A stretch of 64,000 nucleotides of DNA from a bacterium c-19 (GTDB lineage: Bacteria > Bacillota_I > Bacilli_A > Erysipelotrichales > Erysipelotrichaceae), in contig QZED01000002.1 in assembly GCA_009917405.1 (NCBI GenBank), positions 1-64,000 on the forward strand, read 5' to 3'. The notes beneath the pieces were generated by a model. It saw only the letters and a list, made by a program, of their open reading frames with translations, searched no databases and had not been told where the DNA came from. The translations under genes and the position numbers were made by a program. This document shows, in pieces, positions 55,343-62,378 of the stretch. Numbering within the stretch: the stretch's first letter is position 1; each line of letters starts with the position of its first letter.

Positions 55343-58300
55343 TTATTCCGATTCTTTTTTCAGTAAGCTGTCTGATTTCTTTACCACGAAAGCCAGCAGC
55401 ATTCCCAGCATTATAACTGCGAAGGTGTTATTACCGATAATCGAGTCCGTAGTTGCTGTATTTACGATCGGACTGTCGCTTGATACGATGGCATAGTAAG
55501 AATTGTGGTTTGTCGTAAAAGTGATAAATCCGTCTTTTACCTTAGATGGAACCATAGTAACTGTTCCGTCATCAGCGATATACACAATTCCTAAATAGCG
55601 CTTAGCCAGTAACTCATCATCAAGTTTGATTTTGATGGTGAAGGCTCCGTCTGGTTTATATTGCATTCCTTTTTGCAACATATAAATATCATAAATTTTT
55701 TCGATATTATACTTTGCCAGATCATTCTTATTGGTAATTTTATTGATGATTTCCGCCTTAGCTGTATCTGTTAAAGTTTCTACAATTAATTGCACATCTT
55801 CAGGGAATCTTCCTAAAACCGTTACCTGATTAATATTATTATGAATTTGATTTACATAGCCCGGAAGATTTGGTTTAATCGGTTTAATCGGTTCATTCGG
55901 TTTAATCGGATTACTCGGTTTCGGTGGCTTAGGTGTAGGCGTCGGAGTTGAAGAATCTGTTTTCACCAACGCTTTGATAGCTGCCGCTAAGGATGCACAA
56001 GCATTATCTATCTCATCCTGTGTTGCATTCGTATCTTGATAAATCGCTTTAGCTTTAGTTAAAGCAGCTTCCAAAACAGCCCAACTATCAGCTTTATAAT
56101 CATCTTTTGTTAAAGCCTCTGCTTTTTTGATTTCAGTTAGTAAATCACCTTTGAATACTTCATCAGGGATTGTCGGATCTACTTTGACCAAAGCTTTTAT
56201 AGCAGAATTAAGCGCAGTGCACGCTGCATCTACTTCGTCTTGATTAGCATCAGCATCTGCTTCCACTTGCTGTGCCGTTCTCAACGCTGCTTCCAACGCT
56301 TTCCAACTGTCTGCCGTATAATGTTCCGCTGTTAAAGACTGTGCTCTGTGAATAGCAGCAGTTAAATCACCTTTATATACTTCATCAGGGATAGACGGAT
56401 CTACTTTAACCAAAGCATTCATAGCTGCATTTAATGCTTTGTATGCATCATCTACTTCGTCTTGATTAGCATCAGCATTTGCTTCCACTTGCTGTGCCGT
56501 TTTTAATACAGCTTCTAAATTTTTCCAGCTTTCTGCCGTATAGTGATCTTCGGTTAAAGACAGTGCTCTTTGTATAGCAGCAGTCAAATCACCTTTATAC
56601 ACTTCATCAGGAGTGGTTGGATCAACTTTAACCAAATTATCTACTGCTTTATTCAATGCAACGCTTGCGTCATCAACTTCCTCTTGGGTCGCATCTGCAT
56701 CTGCTTCTACTCGTTGTGCTTTGTTCAATGCAGCTTCTAATACTCCCCAACTGTCTGCCGTATAATGATCCTTTGTTAAAGACTCTGCTTTATGGATAGC
56801 AGCAGTCAAATCACCTTTATACACTTCGTCAGGGATTGTCGGATCAACTTTAACCAAATCATCTACAGCCTTATTTAATGCATCACATGCATTATCCACT
56901 TCAGCTTGAGTAGCGTCTGCATCTGCTTCTACCTGCTGTGCTGCTTTCAATGCTGCTTCCAACACTTTCCAGCTCGCAGCTGTATAATGGTCTTCGGTTA
57001 AAATCTCTGCTTTATTAATAGCAGTCAGTAAGTCACTTTTATCTACCTCAGGAACAGTCACTAATGCTTTATACGCTGCCTGTAAAGCGGCGCATGCCTT
57101 GTTTACCTCATCCTGTGTTGCATCCGCATCACCATTTACCTGTTGTGCAGCAGTTAAGGCACTTTGTAAATCTGCCCAGCTGTCTGCAGTATAATCTTTT
57201 TCTGTCAATATCTCCGCCTTTGCGATTTCTGCTTCCAAAAGACTCTTATCAACAACTACCTGTGTTGCGGCAAATTCTCTTGCAAGTTCTGTTACCTTAT
57301 CATACATTCTGGCGGTTTCTGAATGGACAAGCATTCTTTGAACCTCATCTGCGTAGGTTGCACTGCCGTGATAAGTTGATTTTACAGGAAGCTTCATTGA
57401 TTTTGTCAATGTCGTTATTTCTGTTTTATACTCATCGCTTTGTTCCATCAAATACTTAGCCTTCGCAACATCACGCATACCCTGCTTCAACATTTCATAT
57501 CTTGGAGTGCTGTAGAAAGAAGCATTATAATCAGCATCTATCTGATCTCGTTCTACCGGATACACATACCATCCATCACCCGGCTCCCAATAACGATAGC
57601 TGGTGTCACCATGCATATCATATACATAATTATCCCATGCCCAGCGCATGAAGCCATCGGTTCCCAGGGTCATCGTATACCAAATGGTCCAATAGTTATC
57701 ACCCGGGTCACTAATCATAAAGTTTGTAGGATAGTCGCCTGTACAAGAATAGAAAGTAGTATTTAAGCCTAATGCTCTTCTGTGCTCTGACAGCTGATTC
57801 AACTGCGTCTGACTCGTTACATTACCTAGGTTGATTGAAATATCATCAACACGGTCGGTTAATGTATACTGATCCGGAGCTGCATAGTTTAAAGCTGATG
57901 AAATTTTAAAGCTATCGCCTTCAGAATCCGTTACAGATTCAATAGTATTGACTGCAGCCGTTAAATCAGGTAATTCACGCTCATCCATTGAAATATAGGT
58001 GATATCAAACCATCCCTTTTCTTTAGAATGCTTCATGAAATCCGTTAAGAATGCAGACCACGCCGCATTACCGGCTGTTGTACCTGCCTTTAATACTTCA
58101 GTTTTATAAGCAGAAGTAGCCTCATTATAATACTTGATTTGATTTCCCCAAGGAACGATACTGAAGCATTTAATTTTACCGATACCGTTTACCGGATCAA
58201 TAACTCCGGAATCGATCATGAAATTAATCCATTTATCATACCAGTCATAATTGAATTCCCATGTACCATCGCTTTTCTTTGTCCATTTAATCATAGACGG

Positions 58301-60220
58301 ATCATTATAATAAGACTGATGACCCCAAGCTTCCTCCACGATGTTTGCTACAATATCATGACCGCCGTTATCCGCATATTCCTTCACGGACTCACGCATT
58401 AGATTAAAGTGCTGTTCAGTGAAGTAAAACGCGTCATTAGAATCATTTGAAATACCGCCGCTCGGAGTAGAACCTAAGCCTAAATAATAATTCGCAACCG
58501 CAAACGGATGTTGCCAAATCTGTAATTCCGTTTTCTCGTTTTCCGGCTGAACAAGATTCAAAACTTCGATTTCATATGTTAATTCAATCGGATTCGCAAG
58601 TTCATCTGCAGTAACGGTAATTTTTCCTGTATAGTTGCCCGGCACTGTTGCCTGAGGAACATTCATACTTACCCATGCGAAGTTTGCGGTATTCTTTGCG
58701 GCATCATGCGCACCGCCCTTATGAATCACATCAGGGAAATCCAATACGGTTCCCGCCAAGTTTCTTCCGTCATTCGCTTTGACATTTTTCAGCCATTTGA
58801 TATCAATATTATCAGCAGCAATCTTGTTGCCGTTATTATCGGTAAAATCAGAAGCTGTAATATTGATATTATGCACATTAGCTTTAGCTAAAATATTAAG
58901 CTTTGAATTTAAGATATCGCCCTTCCAAGCAACACCGCTCCAATTTCTAACGATTTCAGCTGCTAACAGATCATCAAAATCACGTTGAGTTTCCAACAGT
59001 TTTTCATTACCTACGGAAACATTTAAGTCTTTAATAGCAGGATCAACATTAATCGTTACAGACGTAGAAATCGTAGTATCTTTTACAGTCGCAGTAACCT
59101 GCGTTTGTGCCGCCGTTTTACTGACTGCGGTAATATTTCCGTTCGCATCAATAGTAGCCACTGAGGAATCAGCACTGGAGTAAACGATTTCAGGTTCTTC
59201 ATTAAACCAAGGCTCATAAGAAATTGCCGGGAATTCAGCTGTTTGATTGATACCTAAATCAATATCATCTGTATCCGCAAATATTCTTGTAATCGGCATG
59301 TCTTCATGATAAACCTTTAAATAATCTATCTGAAGAGCAGAGCCTGATTTCAATTCAACCTTTAATGTATGCTCTTTATTATCTAATTCAGAGGATTCAA
59401 ACAGCATTTGCTGATGCTGTACACTGCCTGTAGTTGTTGCATCTGCGGTACCTACCTCTGTACCGTCTACACTGATTTTATACACACCATGTCCGCTGTT
59501 CTTAGAACCGATAAGCTGAAATTTGGTTCCGACGAAGCGCATTTCAAAATAGCCGTTGCTTGTATAATGCTCGTATCCGTCATGAAAATAATCAGGATAA
59601 TAAGATTCTCCGCCGCCCCATGTTCCGGTATATTTAATCTTAAACAATTCATCGGTTTCGGTTGCCATCACATCCTCAATCACAGTAAAGCCGGTATCAG
59701 AGTTTCCGAAAACCTTTGCATAAACGAATTGTACACCATAGGTAGTACCACTGCCTGTAGAAGCAGAATTGCGCTTCCCTAATACAGTTACCTTCGCTGT
59801 ATGATCACCCGGGCTCAATTCGGCACTCTCATATAACTTCACATTAGTTTGCGTTGTGCTCGCATAAGCATCATGCTCAGTCGCCGTTCCGCCGTCAATC
59901 GCAACACTGAACATTGCATGATTGGCTGCCTTTTTTCCGTATAATTCCAGTTTTGTACCATTAAATGTTATATCAATGGTAGCGCCTGCCGAATTACTCC
60001 AATGCTCTGTTACATCAGCAGAACTTCCGCCTGTCGTAGGCCAATAGTCCCAACCGCCGTTATTACTGTTACCGCTGGAATAGACAAAGCGTGCGTCATT
60101 ATCATCAATGATTTCGCCTTCATCAGCTGCTTTAATTTCTATAACTTGATTCATAGTAATAACAGAAACAAAGCAGCACGCCGCCAGAAACAGCTTAGTT
60201 AATTTTTGTATAGCTTTCAT
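55343..60220 (-). CDS. Large surface protein with GH123-like catalytic region and six FIVAR repeats
   Basis: 1625 residues. In order: signal peptide (1-31); two galactose-binding-like beta domains (about 35-175 and 180-306, both with a GTKLELYGKK / GTKFQLIGSK strand); a Big_2-type Ig-like domain (310-393); a linker beta domain (395-555); a DUF4091/GH123-like catalytic region (about 560-930) with Asp746-Glu747 in YISMDERELPD, matching the Asp-Glu dyad of GH123 beta-N-acetylgalactosaminidases; six FIVAR repeats (991-1420); a Pro-rich wall-spanning stretch (1426-1454); a beta domain; and a C-terminal hydrophobic helix (1599-1613) with a Lys-rich tail. No LPxTG motif precedes that helix, so it is probably a membrane anchor rather than a sortase signal. 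Likely role: release of terminal GalNAc from host glycans at the cell surface. AGGAGG precedes the ATG. Confidence 0.87.
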   Translation of the reverse strand: MKAIQKLTKLFLAACCFVSVITMNQVIEIKAADEGEIIDDNDARFVYSSGNSNNGGWDYWPTTGGSSADVTEHWSNSAGATIDITFNGTKLELYGKKAANHAMFSVAIDGGTATEHDAYASTTQTNVKLYESAELSPGDHTAKVTVLGKRNSASTGSGTTYGVQFVYAKVFGNSDTGFTVIEDVMATETDELFKIKYTGTWGGGESYYPDYFHDGYEHYTSNGYFEMRFVGTKFQLIGSKNSGHGVYKISVDGTEVGTADATTTGSVQHQQMLFESSELDNKEHTLKVELKSGSALQIDYLKVYHEDMPITRIFADTDDIDLGINQTAEFPAISYEPWFNEEPEIVYSSADSSVATIDANGNITAVSKTAAQTQVTATVKDTTISTSVTINVDPAIKDLNVSVGNEKLLETQRDFDDLLAAEIVRNWSGVAWKGDILNSKLNILAKANVHNINITASDFTDNNGNKIAADNIDIKWLKNVKANDGRNLAGTVLDFPDVIHKGGAHDAAKNTANFAWVSMNVPQATVPGNYTGKITVTADELANPIELTYEIEVLNLVQPENEKTELQIWQHPFAVANYYLGLGSTPSGGISNDSNDAFYFTEQHFNLMRESVKEYADNGGHDIVANIVEEAWGHQSYYNDPSMIKWTKKSDGTWEFNYDWYDKWINFMIDSGVIDPVNGIGKIKCFSIVPWGNQIKYYNEATSAYKTEVLKAGTTAGNAAWSAFLTDFMKHSKEKGWFDITYISMDERELPDLTAAVNTIESVTDSEGDSFKISSALNYAAPDQYTLTDRVDDISINLGNVTSQTQLNQLSEHRRALGLNTTFYSCTGDYPTNFMISDPGDNYWTIWYTMTLGTDGFMRWAWDNYVYDMHGDTSYRYWEPGDGWYVYPVERDQIDADYNASFYSTPRYEMLKQGMRDVAKAKYLMEQSDEYKTEITTLTKSMKLPVKSTYHGSATYADEVQRMLVHSETARMYDKVTELAREFAATQVVVDKSLLEAEIAKAEILTEKDYTADSWADLQSALTAAQQVNGDADATQDEVNKACAALQAAYKALVTVPEVDKSDLLTAINKAEILTEDHYTAASWKVLEAALKAAQQVEADADATQAEVDNACDALNKAVDDLVKVDPTIPDEVYKGDLTAAIHKAESLTKDHYTADSWGVLEAALNKAQRVEADADATQEEVDDASVALNKAVDNLVKVDPTTPDEVYKGDLTAAIQRALSLTEDHYTAESWKNLEAVLKTAQQVEANADANQDEVDDAYKALNAAMNALVKVDPSIPDEVYKGDLTAAIHRAQSLTAEHYTADSWKALEAALRTAQQVEADADANQDEVDAACTALNSAIKALVKVDPTIPDEVFKGDLLTEIKKAEALTKDDYKADSWAVLEAALTKAKAIYQDTNATQDEIDNACASLAAAIKALVKTDSSTPTPTPKPPKPSNPIKPNEPIKPIKPNLPGYVNQIHNNINQVTVLGRFPEDVQLIVETLTDTAKAEIINKITNKNDLAKYNIEKIYDIYMLQKGMQYKPDGAFTIKIKLDDELLAKRYLGIVYIADDGTVTMVPSKVKDGFITFTTNHNSYYAIVSSDSPIVNTATTDSIIGNNTFAVIMLGMLLAFVVKKSDSLLKKESE
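55961..57250 (-). repeat. Tandem FIVAR-encoding repeats, 222-bp period
   Basis: Six units inside the surface protein gene. Units 2-6 keep an exact 74-codon period (starts at residues 1062, 1136, 1210, 1284, 1358), each with a YTAxSW core and the linker VDPTIPDEVYKGDLTAAI. The DNA of units 3-5 is close enough for recombination to change copy number. Confidence 0.9.
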
Positions 60221-60635: not shown

Positions 60636-60664
60636 TTGCATTCCTTCTTCAATCGTGAGATAAT
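60636..60664 (+). promoter_or_regulatory. Promoter of the ABC-F leader
   Basis: -35 TTGCAT (60636-60641), 17-base spacer, -10 GATAAT (60659-60664); transcription would start near 60671, just before the leader ribosome binding site. Confidence 0.65.
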
Positions 60665-60691
60665 ACTGTTACATTGAAAAGGAGTGAGAGG

Positions 60692-60715
60692 ATGAAGACT
60701 GTTTCTTACAGATAA
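60692..60715 (+). CDS. Seven-residue leader peptide MKTVSYR
   Basis: An eight-codon frame (including TAA) with a strong AAAAGGAG site 7 bases upstream, placed between the promoter and an intrinsic terminator in front of an antibiotic-resistance type ABC-F gene. Its last codons form one arm of a hairpin (TTCTTACA, 60703-60710). Size and position are those of stalling leader peptides such as those before erm and msr genes. Translation and stalling are inferred. Confidence 0.7.
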   Translation: MKTVSYR

Positions 60716-60823
60716 ATCAGAATTTCTAATACCTATGGGTATTTCATATGTAAGAAGGCAGCACGTCTTTTCCCTTTTAATCTTAATAAACAAAAGCTGT
60801 GAGTTCTTTCTTGTAGCTTTTTT
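60703..60823 (+). promoter_or_regulatory. Attenuator with alternative hairpins before the ABC-F gene
   Basis: Three structures compete. Anti-antiterminator: TTCTTACA (60703-60710) with TGTAAGAA (60749-60756), enclosing the hairpin AATACC/GGTATT (60728-60743). Antiterminator: AAGAAGGCAGC (60752-60762) can pair with GCTG...TTCTT (60796-60808). Terminator: AAAGCTGTGAG with CTTGTAGCTTT (60793-60820) and a T run. A ribosome stalled in the leader would block the first pairing and free the antiterminator, letting transcription reach the ABC-F gene. Confidence 0.75.
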
Positions 60824-60911
60824 ATATGCAATCTATAACCCTACAATTTTTAAGCAGCTTTCATAATGCGAAGTGCTTCTTCTTACAATAACGGGAAGGA
60901 GGCATTTTTAT

Positions 60912-62378
60912 ATGTCGATGATAAAAATAGAACACTTAAGCTTTGCCTATCCGTACAGCTTTGAAGATGTATTTGATGATATTAATTTGATTTTTGATAC
61001 CGATTGGAAAATAGGACTGATCGGCAGAAACGGCAAAGGAAAAACTACGCTGTTAAGGCTGTTAATGGATGAGTATTCATACAGCGGTAACATCTATAAG
61101 AATGCAGAATGCATCTATTTTCCTTATGTAATAGCGGATGAAACGATTACTACACTCACGCTTCTGCAATCGCTGTGTCCGCTTTGTGAGGAATGGCAAT
61201 TCAGACGCGAATTATCCGCTTTACAGTTACCGACAACGATAATGGAACGCACTTTTGAAACACTCTCGGGCGGTGAAAAAACCAAAATCCAATTGGTTGC
61301 CCTATTTCTTCATGAACAGTGCTTTTTATTAATTGATGAGCCAACCAATCATTTAGATGCAGAAGGCAGAGCGGTGCTTGCTGCTTATCTGCGTCATAAA
61401 AAAGGCTTTCTGTTAGTTTCTCATGATCGTCATTTTTTAGATTTATGCATTGATCATGTGATAGCGCTGAATCGCAGTAATATAACGGTACAAAGCGGTA
61501 ATTTTGCAACATGGATGAATGATTTTCAGAAGCAACAGGAATATGAAGTTGCCAAAAGCGCACAATTAAAAAAGGAAATTAAGCAGTTGAAGCAATCGGC
61601 GCAAAGAACTGCAGTTTGGTCCAATCGAATCGAAGCGTCTAAATTTCAAAACGGACCTGTCGATCGTGGTTTTATCGGACATAAAGCTGCTAAAATGATG
61701 AAGCGATCTAAAGCGGCTGCCGCCCGACAACAACACTCTATTAAACAAAAAGCAGCTCTTTTAAAAAATCAGGAAGACACACAGCCGTTAAAGCTGAAAC
61801 CGCTGAAATATCATGCGCAAACACTCGTAGCCTTTCATGAGGTGATACTTGAATATGATCAAAAGCCGATCACTAAAAAGTTAAGCTTTACGATTGAGCA
61901 AGGTGACCATATCATTTTGAACGGTAAAAACGGCAGCGGGAAAAGCACTTTATTAAAGCTGTTAAACAAAGAAGTGATCTCATACAGTGGTGAAGTTTTG
62001 ATCAATGCCCAGCTGAAAATCTCTTATGTGCCGCAGGATTGTTCCTTTCTCAGCGGCAGCTTATCACAATTTATTCATTCTAATCATATTGATGAAAGTC
62101 TGATGAAAGCAATACTGAGAAAGTTGAATTTCTCACGCCTGCAATTTGAGCAGGATATGAGCAGCTACTCTGACGGTCAGAAAAAGAAAGTGCTAATTGC
62201 CAAGAGTCTTTGCGAAAATGCGCATTTGTATTTATGGGATGAACCGTTAAATTACATTGATATTTTTACAAGAATGCAACTGGAAGAATTGCTGCAAAAC
62301 TTTGGCGGTACGATGGTGCTTGTTGAGCATGATCAATACTTTCAAGAGGCTGTCGCTACTAAAATAATTCAGCTGTAA
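60912..62378 (+). CDS. ABC-F ribosomal protection protein, Lsa type
   Basis: 488 residues, two ABC domains and no membrane helices. Domain 1: Walker A GRNGKGKT (38-45), LSGGE (118-122), DEPTNHLD (142-149). Interdomain linker about 205-270 with RGFIGHKAAKMMKRSKAAAARQ-like sequence (shown in part), a mark of the Lsa/Vga group. Domain 2: GKNGSGKST, then SYSDGQKKK and LWDEPLNYID. Lsa proteins bind the ribosomal E site and push lincosamides, streptogramin A and pleuromutilins off their site. The start (GGAAGGAGG upstream) is downstream of the attenuator, which suggests induction by such drugs. Resistance is not proven by sequence. Confidence 0.88.
   Translation: MSMIKIEHLSFAYPYSFEDVFDDINLIFDTDWKIGLIGRNGKGKTTLLRLLMDEYSYSGNIYKNAECIYFPYVIADETITTLTLLQSLCPLCEEWQFRRELSALQLPTTIMERTFETLSGGEKTKIQLVALFLHEQCFLLIDEPTNHLDAEGRAVLAAYLRHKKGFLLVSHDRHFLDLCIDHVIALNRSNITVQSGNFATWMNDFQKQQEYEVAKSAQLKKEIKQLKQSAQRTAVWSNRIEASKFQNGPVDRGFIGHKAAKMMKRSKAAAARQQHSIKQKAALLKNQEDTQPLKLKPLKYHAQTLVAFHEVILEYDQKPITKKLSFTIEQGDHIILNGKNGSGKSTLLKLLNKEVISYSGEVLINAQLKISYVPQDCSFLSGSLSQFIHSNHIDESLMKAILRKLNFSRLQFEQDMSSYSDGQKKKVLIAKSLCENAHLYLWDEPLNYIDIFTRMQLEELLQNFGGTMVLVEHDQYFQEAVATKIIQL

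Follow-up and report, generated by a model that had tools for sequence, protein, structure and literature searches.

The window, by which we mean the whole stretch of 64,000 nucleotides analysed here, contains on its plus strand, at 60912-62378, a gene for an ABC-F protein of 488 amino acids. This protein matches the NCBIfam model NF000167 (Lsa) over its full length with 665 bits, the next antibiotic-resistance ABC-F family (Sal) reaching 244; since the score is below the cut-off of 750, we call the gene Lsa-type (ARE3-like) and not Lsa by the rule of NCBI. The closest solved relative is LsaA from Enterococcus faecalis (PDB 7nhk; E 4.5e-116, 392 bits, the next one at 186), compared with which the linker between the two ATPase domains is about seven residues shorter. 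Another model, NF000355, was not selective: its cut-off was also exceeded by two other genes of the same genome, and 8 of 14 control genomes gave scores above it. Judged from its sequence, the protein is an Lsa-type (ARE3-like) ABC-F acting in ribosome protection. The upstream neighbour (55343-60220) lies on the minus strand, divergent from the ABC-F gene, and codes for a secreted-looking protein of 1625 amino acids in which 'L-T-x-x-x-Y-T-A-x-S-W' units, each about 70 residues long, are repeated, and which has a hydrophobic segment at its C-terminus. Because of this orientation, the terminator described below is not that of the neighbour and can act only on the leader transcript.

All the elements of the leader region are on the plus strand. 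The promoter (60636-60664) is composed of a -35 box TTGCAT (60636-60641), a 17-nt spacer and an extended -10 box TGA-GATAAT (60656-60664), from which transcription would start near 60671. It is absent from the list given by a consensus promoter scan because its -35 box matches the consensus at only three of six positions, and its support comes from conservation in the genus instead. A ribosome binding site (SD), AAAAGGAGTGAG, at 60677-60688, whose form across the family is (A)GAGGTG(G) or AAGGAGTG, precedes a frame of seven codons, ATGAAGACTGTTTCTTACAGATAA, running from the ATG at 60692 to the TAA at 60715 and encoding MKTVSYR; this frame is supported by its conservation in the genus and by M-x-x-F-S-C-K/R homologues in other families. 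Codons 4-7 contain segment 1, TTTCTTACA (60702-60710), the anti-antiterminator arm, a near-copy of the 3' arm of the terminator. Segment 1 is complementary, with one G-U pair, to segment 2, TGTAAGAAG (60749-60757), and folding of the window gives this pairing a probability of 0.85. The stretch between the leader frame and the terminator contains TGTAAGAAGGCAGC. Further down, the lower part of the anti-antiterminator, GTCTTTTCCC... (60765-60780), pairs with the leader AAGAC and the leader SD in the minimum free energy structure and is kept in the genus.

The intrinsic terminator (60792-60823) has a 12-bp stem followed by a run of six U; its hairpin AAAAGCTGTGAG-TTCTTT-CTTGTAGCTTTT spans 60792-60821, the T-run ends at 60823, and the stem forms with a probability of 0.93-0.95 in the free transcript of the window. 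Its loop and 3' arm include segment 3, TTCTTGTA (60808-60815), the antiterminator partner of segment 2. Finally, a hairpin at 60873-60905 (-10.5 kcal/mol) covers the SD of the ABC-F gene, GGAAGGAGG, upstream of the ATG at 60912, and segment 1 is repeated once more in one of its arms, CTTCTTACA (60879-60887). At the gathering score, Rfam gave no match in the window.

Promoter, SD, MKTVSYR frame, mutually exclusive pairings and terminator had been described in this order by an earlier note on this DNA, and they can indeed be read directly. We scanned both strands for the whole architecture, i.e. an SD, a short frame, a leader pairing and a terminator pairing with the same segment. Exactly one leader was detected in the window, and two were found in 5.1 Mb of dinucleotide-shuffled window, hence about 0.05 expected per window by chance, with a threshold that was lowered after a first, higher one had missed even the window and was set knowing the score of the window. 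Among the four species of the genus, the -35 box (6/6 columns) and the extended -10 box (9/9) are invariant while the spacer and the upstream DNA diverge; 32 of 33 columns are invariant from the SD to codon 6, and 25 of 26 in segment 2 with its flanks (60747-60772). For comparison, a fraction of 0.31-0.45 of the spacer columns and of 0.48 of the third positions of ABC-F codons is invariant in the same four species. The terminator is less strictly kept (0.77), its changes being mostly in the loop and the upper stem. Comparison of orthologous leaders, which the note had proposed as a check, clearly showed that both the small frame and the pairings are conserved among related genomes.

We gathered Lsa-type genes from relatives, from the order and from named genomes, and obtained 131 loci whose upstream DNA was available. 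Of these, 76, counted with a few duplicates left out (62 without the near-identical ones), carry an SD-preceded frame M-x-x-[F/I/V/T/S]-[S/F/L/P]-[C/Y/A/D]. The usual leader is M-x-x-F-S-C-(K/R), as in MINFSCK, MYNFSCK, MFNFSCR, MYKFSC or MRNSSCK, and leaders of the family are 6 to 20 residues long; MKTVSYR, the leader of the window, is a divergent member. The family extends over two classes, from Erysipelotrichales to Clostridia such as Lachnospiraceae and Oscillospiraceae, and in both groups most Lsa-type genes have a leader with a good SD in front of them. Other leaders are present at the Lsa loci of Bacillus, Lysinibacillus and Paenibacillus. Of the 61 other loci left by dereplication, 59 gave a counterpart of the terminator, including loci in which it is far from the gene; a strict first version of the terminator scan had retained 34 loci and a looser one 60, and since the scan chose the SD hairpin for the window, the terminator of the latter was set by hand.

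MINFSCK occurs in the same frame and at the same spacing (about -335 to -337) at L070, L073, L074, L076, L078, L079, L080 and L081, in Anaerostipes, Faecalicatena, Agathobaculum, Fusibacillus, Eubacterium coprostanoligenes and Clostridium vitabionis. That frame and spacing are common to several genera suggests a recent horizontal transfer of this attenuator together with its gene.

At almost all loci, a segment downstream of the leader, UUGCAAGAAAGUU, pairs both with leader codons 3-7 (AAC UUU UCU UGC AAA) and with the terminator, where its partner is the loop with the 3' arm (GAGCUGCAAGAAU..ACUUUCUUGCAGCUC-U). With this shared partner, the RNA that encodes the leader nearly repeats the sequence of the terminator arm. 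Each leader pairs with its own downstream region better than swapped leaders do (21.6 versus 18.6; 0 of 10,000 permutations). So that its choice could not bias the result, segment 2 was also defined from one side only: defined from the terminator and compared with the leader, it gave z = 8.6, and defined from the leader and compared with the terminator, z = 11.4 (0 of 20,000 permutations in each case). The resemblance of leader and terminator arm is also higher within a locus than between loci (z = 7.9). Leader, segment 2 and terminator arm all covary. These permutation statistics and z-values ignore kinship and are inflated by shared ancestry, although the loci were dereplicated to 62. In an alignment of 49 sequences, both partners have changed in 10 of 12 pairs and 86.6% of the cells pair, which none of 500 shuffles reached; in slid registers pairing drops to 41-60%. 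The pairing of the leader codons with a downstream segment, as claimed in the note, is thus upheld by both the computed probability in the window and the compensatory changes, even though the pairing of the window leader (a 9-bp core) is weaker than that of the family.

The recurrence of the M-x-x-F-S-C-K/R pattern over two classes could also be expected from a drug-dependent arrest peptide, with Phe-Ser-Cys (here Val-Ser-Tyr) being read in the exit tunnel or the peptidyl transferase centre and the ribosome stalling at a specific codon. In the same direction, the identity of the vmlR leader matters although lincomycin is not known to be context-dependent (PMC10201436). Several observations make this explanation unlikely. 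Codons 4-6 vary, from F to I/V/T/S, from S to F/P/L and from C to Y/A/D (UCU, UCC, UUU, UUC, CCU and CUU at codon 5; UGC, UGU, UAC, UAU, GCA and GAU at codon 6), and so does the length of the peptide, within the range given above. Conversely, the second and third positions of codon 5 (alignment columns 32 and 33) are unpaired in none of the 48 sequences with letters there, and the C-to-Y change of the genus (G to A) is matched by a C-to-U change in segment 2. Moreover, switching is predicted to be best with stalls at codons 1-4 and weaker towards codon 7. The simplest reading is that the apparent conservation of the peptide is mainly a by-product of RNA pairing. There is some small chance that the leader codons are under double selection, serving as RNA mimics of the terminator arm and encoding a short peptide that would give context-dependent stalling by pleuromutilins, lincosamides or streptogramins A within the first six codons; the leaders in front of Lsa-type genes would then form a widespread, undescribed family.

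We then considered the effect of a ribosome held on the leader, represented by a masked footprint from -15 to +16 around the leader AUG, in folds with increasing exposed 3' ends. In the window, segment 2 pairs with segment 3 with a probability of 0.00 in the free transcript, and of 0.85 and 0.69 when the AUG is masked and the exposed end is at 60812 and 60817, respectively. At 60817, the probability of the terminator falls from 0.93 to 0.10 upon masking. Once the whole hairpin is exposed (60824), the terminator is favoured again at equilibrium despite the mask (0.94), which implies that the switch of the window must be kinetic. In the 59 loci folded with a start-codon mask, the probability of the terminator near the decision point is 0.77 without and 0.13 with the mask, and 42 of the 50 loci that start at 0.5 or more end below 0.5; once the hairpin is fully exposed, the two values are 0.96 and 0.57. 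A control mask placed elsewhere has almost no effect (0.81 to 0.78). By computation, occupancy of the small upstream frame (uORF) by a ribosome favours the antiterminator over the terminator; for the window, this holds only while part of the terminator is still unexposed. Stalls at codons 1 to 4 are alike and best for switching and the effect fades towards codon 7; such a preference for start-proximal stalls fits drugs that hold ribosomes just after initiation.

The logic of antitermination by a stalled ribosome, as put forward in the note, is therefore supported by covariation and by the masked folds, and folding with and without the leader masked, suggested there as a check, gave the expected change in pairing. 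The exact antiterminator had to be revised. The note had paired AAGAAGGCAGC with GCTGTGAGTTCTT, in the 5' arm of the terminator; the probability of this pairing never exceeded 0.06, and the preferred alternative is that of UGUAAGAA (60749-60756) with UUCUUGUA (60808-60815).

Taken together, these results make it highly probable, in our opinion, that the leader is a ribosome-controlled transcription attenuator, in which a stall near the leader AUG frees segment 2 and leads to antitermination into the ABC-F gene. We infer that the leader is translated. When no drug is present, ribosomes would complete the short frame and depart, or never load; leader codons 3-7 would pair with segment 2 as an anti-antiterminator, segment 3 would be kept in the terminator hairpin and RNA polymerase would halt at about 60823. 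A ribosome held at or near the leader AUG would cover the leader SD and codons 1-5 and release segment 2; before the terminator hairpin closes, this segment would pair with its loop and 3' arm, allowing the polymerase to enter the ABC-F gene in vivo. Likely inducers would be drugs freezing the ribosome just after initiation, as lincosamides, pleuromutilins and streptogramins A do (PMC9226507, PMC10201436, PMC12421871).

Segment 2 may play a further role in this genus, where it could later pair also with the arm hiding the SD of the gene. In all four species, segment 2 pairs with the CTTCTTACA arm only when the leader is masked, and a second, weaker, translational layer is therefore possible according to these folds. 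One could go further and consider the SD hairpin (60873-60905) as the switch itself and the terminator as incidental, i.e. a mostly translational attenuation, all the more so as cplR combines both layers (PMC10201436). However, the predicted opening of the main SD upon masking is small (from 0.16 to 0.24 in the window and from 0.02-0.25 to 0.24-0.37 in its relatives), and a terminator of the same layout is present at almost every dereplicated locus, even far from the gene, so that we regard this view as very improbable compared with transcription attenuation.

The SD, the leader and segment 2 were used to build a covariance model, R1, which was trained on many of the loci that it then matches and which gave matches with E <=0.01 in 54 of the 309 genomes of the order. 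At each match with E <=1e-6 for which the DNA behind it was read or the gene had been located before, an Lsa-type gene follows, and the genes behind the readable strong matches include new families in the class; for two R1 matches at contig ends in one genome (G257), the downstream gene is unreadable. A fairer test is provided by a second model, R2, built without the genus of the window. Over the whole genome of the window, R2 ranks this leader first (36.5 bits, E 4e-5), and it also recovers the orthologous sites of the three sister species that have the gene; in the three species without the gene, there was no R2 match better than E 0.03. Several Lsa loci of the order gave no model match. In three genomes (G060, G073 and G075; loci L158, L164 and L169), the attenuator is intact and the Lsa-type frame is split in two, by decay or sequencing error.

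The nature of the downstream genes is also relevant to amino-acid starvation attenuators of the classic trp/his type, which share the same general anatomy of a short frame and mutually exclusive hairpins and could sense here, for example, Cys-tRNA or Tyr-tRNA. The leaders contain no run of regulatory codons, codons 2-7 differ between loci, and the gene at the readable strong matches is always an ABC-F, never a biosynthetic gene; we thus hardly give any credit to a starvation sensor.

Other candidate attenuators were seen near ABC-F genes. At the Bacillus-type Lsa loci L107, L109, L110, L114, L122 and L130 (about -149), a second conserved frame, MSxSDTIVTHVxLRISR, is present, and related IVTH frames occur in some Clostridia (L070, L077 and L104, about -134). 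Three pairings can be seen here: that of CTCCGTATAAGT, the last codons of the IVTH frame, with ACTTATACGGAG, a possible one between ATCCATC and GATGGAT, and that of the gene SD TATACAAAGGAGG with CGACTTTGTATA. By analogy, this frame resembles a translational attenuator of the erm type, placed after the transcriptional one; no paper on it was found in the literature searched. At about -410, the same Bacillus-type loci have leaders of four residues, M-D/N-G-Q, which overlap M-D-N-D and seem to possess an anti-antiterminator and a terminator of their own; these leaders are close to the published LsaA leader MAGN (PMC10201436). At L184 and L188 (about 1518-1575, gene strand), a different ABC-F gene, whose product has about 25% identity to the window protein, is located directly behind the leaders MNRTSF and MDRISF, whose TTC/TTTC stretch can pair with the gene SD GGAGGAAG, as in a compact translational attenuator.

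From the sequences compared here, the switch is shared by dozens of other gut bacteria, which very probably turn on their Lsa-type gene only when an antibiotic blocks the ribosome. By this reading, resistance by ribosome protection would be inducible in many uncultured Erysipelotrichales and Clostridia of the gut, and the covariance model could mark drug-inducible Lsa-type genes in genomes and metagenomes. The apparent conservation of a tiny peptide would be explained by codons copying a terminator arm, and the corrected pairing is the one for bench tests to mutate.

In erm leaders, a ribosome stalled on the leader frame switches RNA pairing, the arrest being macrolide- and nascent-chain-dependent. 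As proposed for the window, a stall on the leader frame also switches RNA pairing in msrD; the msrD arrest depends on a macrolide and on the nascent chain, whereas the signal in the window looks like RNA pairing and start-proximal occupancy (PMC10314930). Attenuation of ABC-F genes by uORFs is established, with the uORFs MIN for vmlR, MR[I/M] for cplR, MK[L/Q] for VmlR2 and MAGN for LsaA (PMC9226507, PMC10201436). LsaA belongs to the same ARE3/Lsa subfamily (Obana et al. 2023, PMC10201436), but its leader MAGN, of which MKTVSYR is not a variant, differs from M-x-x-F-S-C-K/R; the published MAGN consensus was drawn from homologues with at least 80% identity (PMC10201436). The leader sequences that we tried were not found in the literature searched, and an earlier description is possible, as most subscription papers and the supplementary tables were outside the search. 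The class of mechanism is thus known from vmlR and cplR, and the leader family and its pairing layout are apparently undescribed. In Clostridioides difficile, cplR, an ABC-F gene for pleuromutilin, lincosamide and streptogramin A resistance, is likewise preceded by a short uORF and combines transcriptional and translational attenuation; it differs from the window by its uORF MR[I/M], by its ARE1 subfamily and by the main SD being sequestered in the terminator itself (Obana et al. 2023, PMC10201436). The vmlR leader of Bacillus subtilis has a uORF, an anti-antiterminator, an antiterminator, a terminator and an SD hairpin in the same order as in the window, again with an ABC-F gene downstream, and ribosomes arrested at initiation induce it (Takada et al. 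2022, PMC9226507). Its uORF MIN, however, sits in a bulge of the anti-antiterminator, whereas codons 3-7 of the window leader are the paired arm itself, a near-copy of the 3' arm of the terminator.
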